NCBI GenBank assembly: GCA_030765585.1
Contig: JAVCCJ010000090.1
Location: forward strand, 1 to 37,923
DNA: 37,923 nt
Reading direction: 5' to 3'
Origin: Candidatus Zapsychrus exili
GTDB lineage: Bacteria; Omnitrophota; Gorgyraeia; Zapsychrales; Zapsychraceae
Shown here: positions 21,980-22,090 of the stretch, in pieces
How the letters are laid out: each line of letters starts with the position of its first letter
Position numbering within the stretch: position 1 is the first letter of the stretch
The notes under the pieces: model-generated
What the model was told of the DNA's origin: nothing
The model's input: only the letters and a program-made list of their open reading frames with translations
Databases searched by the model: none
Position numbers and translations under genes: made by a program

Positions 21980-22090
21980 AATATTTCCTTTTAAATGAGC
22001 TCCAAACTTACGGAGTCACAATTCATTATGACGAACATAAGTTTGATGAGCGAATTTACCCCGAGCTTTAACGAAGGGTCTAAATTTTTT
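21980..22090 (-). promoter_or_regulatory. Structured 5' leader of eno, related to cysH leader
   Basis: Reading the plus-strand coordinates, GCTC (21999-22002) and AAACTTA (22004-22010) pair with TAAGTTT (22038-22044) and GAGC (22048-22051). Directly beyond comes GAATTTACCCCGA, identical in the cysH leader, and then a weaker ACCC/GGGT stem (22058-22061 with 22076-22079). On the mRNA side the block CTCATTTAAA leads into the ribosome site. The function is unknown. Confidence 0.55.

Follow-up and report, generated by a model that had tools for sequence, protein, structure and literature searches.

The leader common to the enolase (eno) and phosphoadenylyl-sulfate reductase (cysH) genes of Candidatus Zapsychrus exili is one end hairpin, and so one half, of a mobile DNA repeat that is dispersed in Omnitrophota, and both leaders are ordinary members of this unusual repeat family. 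Copies form covarying hairpins, are scattered over many genomes, are missing from orthologous sites in relatives, sit at gene boundaries and, when paired, can enclose a GIY-YIG nuclease gene. We consider it probable that the family is a dispersed, hairpin-ended mobile element, linked to the GIY-YIG nuclease and placed at gene boundaries, with the eno and cysH leaders as two of its miniature copies. The best reading is that of a REPIN/MITE-like micro-element with the nuclease as its likely mobilizer.

The eno and cysH leaders and their repeat family

We analyzed a 37,923-nucleotide stretch of the genome (the window), in which both leaders lie on the minus strand, with the following features.

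20708–21979, minus strand: enolase gene (TIGR01060), neighbor of the eno copy; its ATG lies 12 nt past the element end
21992–22062, minus strand: end hairpin unit of the eno copy (GGGGTAAATTCG, then P2, then CTCATTTA); covariance model R1, 68.0 bits, E = 6.1e-11
21992–22058, minus strand: basal stem of the eno copy, inner arm TAAAT (22058–22054) against outer, flank-side arm ATTTA (21996–21992); from sequence, the stem covarying in other copies
21999–22051, minus strand: P2 hairpin of the eno copy, GCTC/GAGC plus AAACTTA/TAAGTTT plus an inner stem; from sequence, fold and covariation
22059–22084, minus strand: inner hairpin P1 of the eno copy, with what may be a remnant of the inner arm of the opposite end (TTTAGACCC ... 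GGGG); from sequence and fold
Minus strand, blocks of the eno leader: CGGGGTAAATTC at 22063–22052; GCTC at 22051–22048 with GAGC at 22002–21999; CTCATTTA at 21999–21992
33181–33900, minus strand: cysH (NF002537, phosphoadenylyl-sulfate reductase); AAGGAGAAGAAAATG directly follows the element end and is kept in the empty orthologue of genome G021
33913–33973, minus strand: end hairpin unit of the cysH copy; model R1, 79.9 bits, E = 1.8e-13, the best copy of the genome
33920–33962, minus strand: P2 hairpin of the cysH copy, GGAC/GTCC plus ATAAGTTATG/CATAACTTAT; from sequence, fold and covariation
33970–34007, minus strand: left end AAGGGAGCCCC of the cysH copy and its P1 hairpin CCCCG..CGGGG; from sequence and fold
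Minus strand, blocks of the cysH leader: CGGGGTAAATTC at 33974–33963; GGAC at 33962–33959 with GTCC at 33923–33920; CTCATTTA at 33920–33913

The two-hairpin layout that a preliminary description had given for these leaders was confirmed, with strand and blocks as it described them. Beyond P1 of the eno copy (22059–22084), no partner end hairpin was detected. Both leaders fold better than their dinucleotide shuffles, with z scores of -2.6 for eno and -4.8 for cysH. Exact matches to CGGGGTAAATTC were found at the two leaders in the window and at one further place in the genome, on C60 ahead of an endonuclease-Q-like gene, and the reversed control pattern gave 0 matches.

Searching the Candidatus Zapsychrus exili genome with model R1, we found 39 matches at E ≤1 (36 at E ≤0.01; 35 with stricter filters), and across 92 genomes the model finds copies in 58, with up to 58 per genome. 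A loose pattern (GGGTAAATTC, 18–48 bases, CTCAT) matched in 25 of the 92 genomes, 11 times in one of them, and its reversed control was almost empty. A scan of GTDB genomes with GGGGTAAATTCG-N32-62-CTCATTTA, a pattern that fixes the two conserved blocks and leaves the stems free, returned 76 stretches, mostly from Candidatus Omnitrophota, with a few in Paceibacteria, Gribaldobacteria, Scalindua, Zixibacteria and others; matches in Vibrio, Paenibacillus and Nitrospirae look like chance. Two variants of the unit were also observed. Genomes of Paceibacteria type (L049, L065, L073, L075, L088) carry a subtype with the inner repeat GTGAAGT/ACTTCAC, with several copies lying inside 8 kb and mostly fused to stop codons, and in G041 a truncated unit (GGGATAAAGTTCAAAAATCTAAAGGTTCAATATCCCGACACG...) stands in tandem arrays directly upstream of full copies (L325, L327, L335).

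In each end hairpin, GGGG is followed by the inner arm (TNAAT), then by a short internal loop (TC), a stem of the form G-NNN and a longer stem with CTTAYG/CRTAAG, and last by CTC and the outer arm (ATTNA); the invariant 5' block of the copies is GGGGTAAATTCG. In nearly all stretches from the GTDB scan, the tetranucleotide that follows TAAATTC can pair with the one preceding TCATTTA. Across the 54 copies of alignment A1, stems are paired in 95.9% of cells and 170 cells are doubly changed, compared with a shuffled mean of 47 and 0 of 500 shuffles equaling 170, and the signal collapsed when pairing partners were slid out of register. The preservation of pairing despite sequence change, first noted for the two leaders, thus holds generally. 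Once the search was freed from the fixed pattern by use of the model, the basal stem was also seen to vary in step (TAAAT/ATTTA, TTAAT/ATTAA, TCAAT/ATTGA, TGAAT/ATTCA, TAAGT/ACTTA, TCAAC/GTTGA), the inner arm covarying with the flank-side arm of the copies.

Stem mismatches are G.T in 14 cases and A.C in 13 in A1, and 23 and 45, respectively, in the model-fitted alignment A2. Because G.T is no commoner than A.C, and a selected mRNA from this strand should favor G.U, the repeat structure is most simply a DNA hairpin, and nothing points to its selection as mRNA; the earlier suggestion of selection on RNA structure is therefore not borne out by the mismatches. A riboswitch or other known RNA family was rejected: Rfam, whether searched at the gathering threshold or permissively, returned nothing beyond chance matches, among them a weak one to freshwater-2 at 14.3 bits against a cut-off of 49.9.

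Gene boundaries and empty sites

Among 109 copies examined for position, 53 are start-side, 36 stop-side and 20 in neither class. The stop codon of the neighbor is overlapped at exactly -3 by 29 of the 36 stop-side copies, and the ends of start-side copies concentrate in two zones, one at -1 (CTCATTTATG, 15 copies), the other between +6 and +14, immediately ahead of the ribosome site. The GTDB copy set is biased to TTTA ends by its search pattern; the model-based set of Candidatus Zapsychrus exili nevertheless gives the same picture, with 12 of 31 copies stop-fused and 10 of 31 start-side, against 19 of 139 stop-fused among unrelated TCATTTA words. Ends abut tRNA genes too (L170, L154), and Paceibacteria copies meet stop codons likewise (L049, L073, L075, L088). 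Comparison with empty sites showed that the protein ends and stops are native (groEL in L062; the L203 locus), indicating that host sequence forms or overlaps the outer arm and is matched by the inner arm. We rejected random insertion into the 3' ends of genes, with a stop supplied by the element, for the L203 locus and for groEL, where both the protein end and the TAA are native. The exact boundary hits may reflect selection against other insertions, loss of spacer sequence or a real targeting step.

Mobility of the repeat is well supported by comparison of filled and empty sites. Candidatus Zapsychrus exili alone, among 29 genomes with the eno start read, has a copy there; the other matches in the eno loci of these genomes lie away from the eno start, and G021 has only an unscored GGGATAAATTCG fragment. 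The only close cysH orthologue, in G021 (81% protein identity), has no element and the same ribosome site, and retains AAAGGAGAAGAAAATGAG, which in Candidatus Zapsychrus exili comes after the cysH element end. A conserved gene and a greA-like gene flank the L203 locus. There, G026 carries a full GIY-YIG element and G010 a miniature at the same point, and the site is empty in G030, G022, G028, G025, G019, G031 and G027; the TAA stop that the element end overlaps is present in six of these seven empty genomes, the exception (G027) having TGA. Copies of G041 at eight sites are likewise absent from one or more of G047, G044 and G036. The junctions of the empty orthologous sites are too diverged to define a clean target-site duplication. 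We considered AAGGAAACCCC, the left end of one-ended copies, as a simple target duplication, as it resembled a duplicated ribosome site in some copies, but L338 and its empty orthologue suggest that AAGGAAACCCC may instead be part of the element.

A riboswitch-like cis-regulatory RNA leader common to eno, cysH and other genes would account for a covarying two-hairpin structure directly before ribosome sites, for the narrow distance range of the start-side copies and for the filling of some sites in several species of one genus. We find this very improbable, given that copies adjoin unrelated genes with no common pathway, in either orientation, and follow the stops of convergent genes nearly as often as they precede starts. 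Moreover, 28 of the 29 eno starts and the G021 cysH orthologue lack a copy, the stems show no G-U preference and Rfam yields no match. These observations count against the regulatory RNA common to the two genes that the preliminary description proposed, and favor its second option, a mobile 5' leader, which was right, the leaders being copies of a dispersed mobile repeat. It had also held that copies at random positions relative to start codons would speak against its reading; many copies do lie away from starts, but their placement is not random and follows exact gene boundaries.

It is also unlikely that the copies, mobile in origin, are now kept by the host as boundary elements serving as terminators, in mRNA-end protection or as insulation. 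Such retention would account for copies fitting stop codons and ribosome sites so exactly, also outside the phylum, as well as for orthologous sites filled with diverged sequence. However, many orthologous sites are empty beside the same genes, the exact fit is already there at sites empty in sister species, and the G-U signature is absent. One start-fused site is filled in three species of one genus (L337 with L352 and L356; G041, G047, G044) by copies with strongly diverged sequence and largely kept pairing, and this occupancy could reflect retention for a host function.

Some genes recur as neighbors of the repeat. An endonuclease-Q-like gene has a start-fused copy in different families (L003/L134, G000:C60:12009; L011/L156, G036:C2:161066), as does a pheT-like gene whose product starts MK(I/F)S.NWLKDY (L127, G000:C77; L035). 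The filling of the same two genes in different families may represent recurrent targeting or long retention. In G036 (L287, 2810–2875; G036:C2:201245), a copy some 40 bases downstream of eno is start-fused to the next gene, so that eno there has a copy at its opposite end.

A GIY-YIG gene between paired ends

The repeat occurs as singlets and as inverted doublets, many copies being paired head to head, minus then plus, with their GGGG ends facing. The space inside pairs is often 25–100 bases with an inner inverted repeat, and spaces of 240–305 bases often hold one ORF, encoding a single-domain GIY-YIG endonuclease. At ten loci (L106, L097, L103, L203, L204, L205, L234, L257, L258, L270), a GIY-YIG gene of 80–95 aa is the sole ORF between paired ends, open in eight and broken in two; that of L103 has an early in-frame stop, and that of L270, a locus orthologous to L205, is split by a palindrome nested in it. 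L106, L097 and L103 were found by the hairpin pattern alone, and L234, L257, L258 and L270 via GIY-YIG relatives. Complete elements measure ~380–425 bp, as in L257 (about 383 bp, 853–1235) and L097 (423 bp, 1462–1884). Three of the four GTDB-scan pairs with a middle of at least 190 bases contain the ORF (L051 is without it), and the two long pairs of the Candidatus Zapsychrus exili genome (L124, L140) have no GIY-YIG ORF. Since a GIY-YIG ORF occupies at most some 0.1% of such a genome, its enclosure between ends is far from chance.

All five element-borne proteins tested match PF01541 over the catalytic domain, with E values of 6.7e-10 to 3.8e-18; a PDB search with one element-borne GIY-YIG protein returned no relative at E 0.01. 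The enclosed proteins fall in a few subclades of the local GIY-YIG tree, with 5 label changes against a shuffled mean of 8.6 and 0 of 500 shuffles as low. We found that gene-less copies share ends and also inner repeats with gene-bearing ones: CACACCAATT is common to gene-less L050 and gene-bearing L097/L103, CCACCACTTTT to gene-less L086 and L060 and gene-bearing L203, and GCCCTTTT to gene-less L083, L039 and L055 and gene-bearing L106. The short copies thus look like deletion derivatives.

Other arrangements of GIY-YIG genes were seen as well. At L394 and L395 (G031:C76, G019:C59), other palindromes have inserted into an end-hairpin loop and into the GIY-YIG ORF, both parts of one ancestral element. 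Two further GIY-YIG genes lie in tRNA genes (L254, G032:C159:16200-18262; L225, G015:C19), where a tRNA 5' half broken near the anticodon is followed by the GIY-YIG gene and then by a complete tRNA; L254 shows a 398 bp tandem duplication. These tRNA-located genes may represent another type of GIY-YIG element, one directed at anticodon loops.

Across genomes, copy number correlates with GIY-YIG gene count at a Spearman coefficient of 0.47 and with Y1 transposase count at 0.19 (p 0.07), neither value being corrected for kinship. GIY-YIG genes are mostly unflanked, with an end nearby in 2 of the 30 best-scoring loci, one end being weak. L203-like GIY-YIG genes are scarce in some copy-rich genomes (none in G044, one broken in G041), which means that such genomes must hold relics, or copies moved by another agent. 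We regard as improbable a system of REP/REPIN-type repeats moved by a Y1 (RAYT/HUH) transposase with the GIY-YIG gene as passenger, even though the anatomy of two inverted hairpins with many extragenic copies is REPIN-like and the Candidatus Zapsychrus exili genome has three Y1_Tnp genes. None of 32 Y1 loci is enclosed by ends and only one has an end within 1.5 kb, and on this enclosure result RAYT/Y1 was rejected as mobilizer; in addition, G043, G044 and G047 have no Y1 match despite 22–45 copies (41 in G044, 45 in G047), the correlation is weak and the GTAG/CGTC tag is absent.

A further reading takes the ends as integron attC sites recombined by an integrase, with the neighboring genes as cassettes; it draws on the long, imperfect hairpin, with its boxes, bulge and unpaired spacer, and on the cassette-like precision of gene boundaries. 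This is extremely unlikely: the outer box is ATTNA where attC sites have the R' box GTTRRRY, the neighbors include the core genes groEL and eno, and the ends form inverted pairs with a GIY-YIG gene, not an integrase, between them.

In the model we propose, the two ends of a complete element face each other and enclose inner inverted repeats and a single-domain GIY-YIG ORF. The element inserts at a gene boundary such that its outer arm is, or overlaps, the stop or start codon, the ribosome site or the tRNA end of the neighbor, with the inner arm complementary to this boundary sequence. The GIY-YIG protein, whose role in mobility we infer, would nick or cut the hairpin base, probably in single-stranded or extruded DNA, and so drive spread, and pairing of the inner arm with the target may take part in site choice or fixing. 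Short copies would be non-autonomous derivatives of the complete element, as would one-ended ones, to which the eno and cysH leaders belong, and if these two affect the expression of their genes at all, they would do so incidentally.

Known systems and significance

IS200/IS605 elements resemble the Omnitrophota element in having subterminal hairpins at both ends and perhaps in having a short internal sequence that pairs with the flank, as the guide sequences of TnpA do. By contrast, the ends of the Omnitrophota element are inverted copies of each other and it is about half the size; we found no TnpA Y1 or TnpB inside it, GIY-YIG being the only ORF between the ends. GIY-YIG domains are also known from introns and from free-standing homing endonucleases of the T4 Seg type. 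The latter share the catalytic domain and are encoded by small intergenic genes between host genes, whereas the Omnitrophota element occupies many unrelated sites and has hairpin ends and numerous gene-less derivatives.

REP/REPIN sequences with RAYT (TnpA_REP; PMC3116915, PMC3733652) are likewise short, extragenic, palindromic DNA hairpins that occur as singlets and head-to-head inverted doublets, with a repeat-linked nuclease gene and dominant non-autonomous copies. The Omnitrophota repeat differs from them in having no GTAG/GGAG/CGTC tag 5' of the hairpin, a GIY-YIG instead of an HUH Y1 enzyme, its gene inside the doublet, strict fusion to stop and start codons, and an inner arm complementary to the flank. 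Bacterial MITEs are similarly gene-less internal-deletion derivatives bounded by inverted repeats (PMC10969869), but the protein of the Omnitrophota parent element is a GIY-YIG nuclease and not a classical transposase, and the element end is a structured hairpin with freely variable stem sequence. In the open-access (PMC) literature searched, we found no report of bacterial palindromic mobile elements with GIY-YIG, nor of any bacterial element whose only protein is a GIY-YIG nuclease.

Taken further, the element may constitute a new class of autonomous transposable element, ~380–425 bp long, whose sole protein, an 80–95 aa single-domain GIY-YIG nuclease, would act on the hairpin ends, with DNA-DNA pairing of the inner guide arm and the target and insertion directed to gene boundaries (stop codons, starts, tRNA ends), in Omnitrophota, the related repeats being those of Paceibacteria and of a few further phyla; we see the case for and against this as evenly balanced. 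Transposable elements are classed by their enzyme, and if the proposal is true, the GIY-YIG element would rank with the smallest known DNA elements that are self-mobile.

The two leaders also carry a caution, in that a covarying leader beside a metabolic gene need not be a riboswitch; counts of G-U and A-C mismatches, copies in both orientations and empty sites tell the two apart. Harmless insertion at exact stop and start codons raises the question of how a DNA element finds translation boundaries. Small GIY-YIG genes of uncultured bacteria are usually read as stray repair or homing nucleases; if the link between nuclease and repeat holds, these tiny, abundant genes would gain a role.
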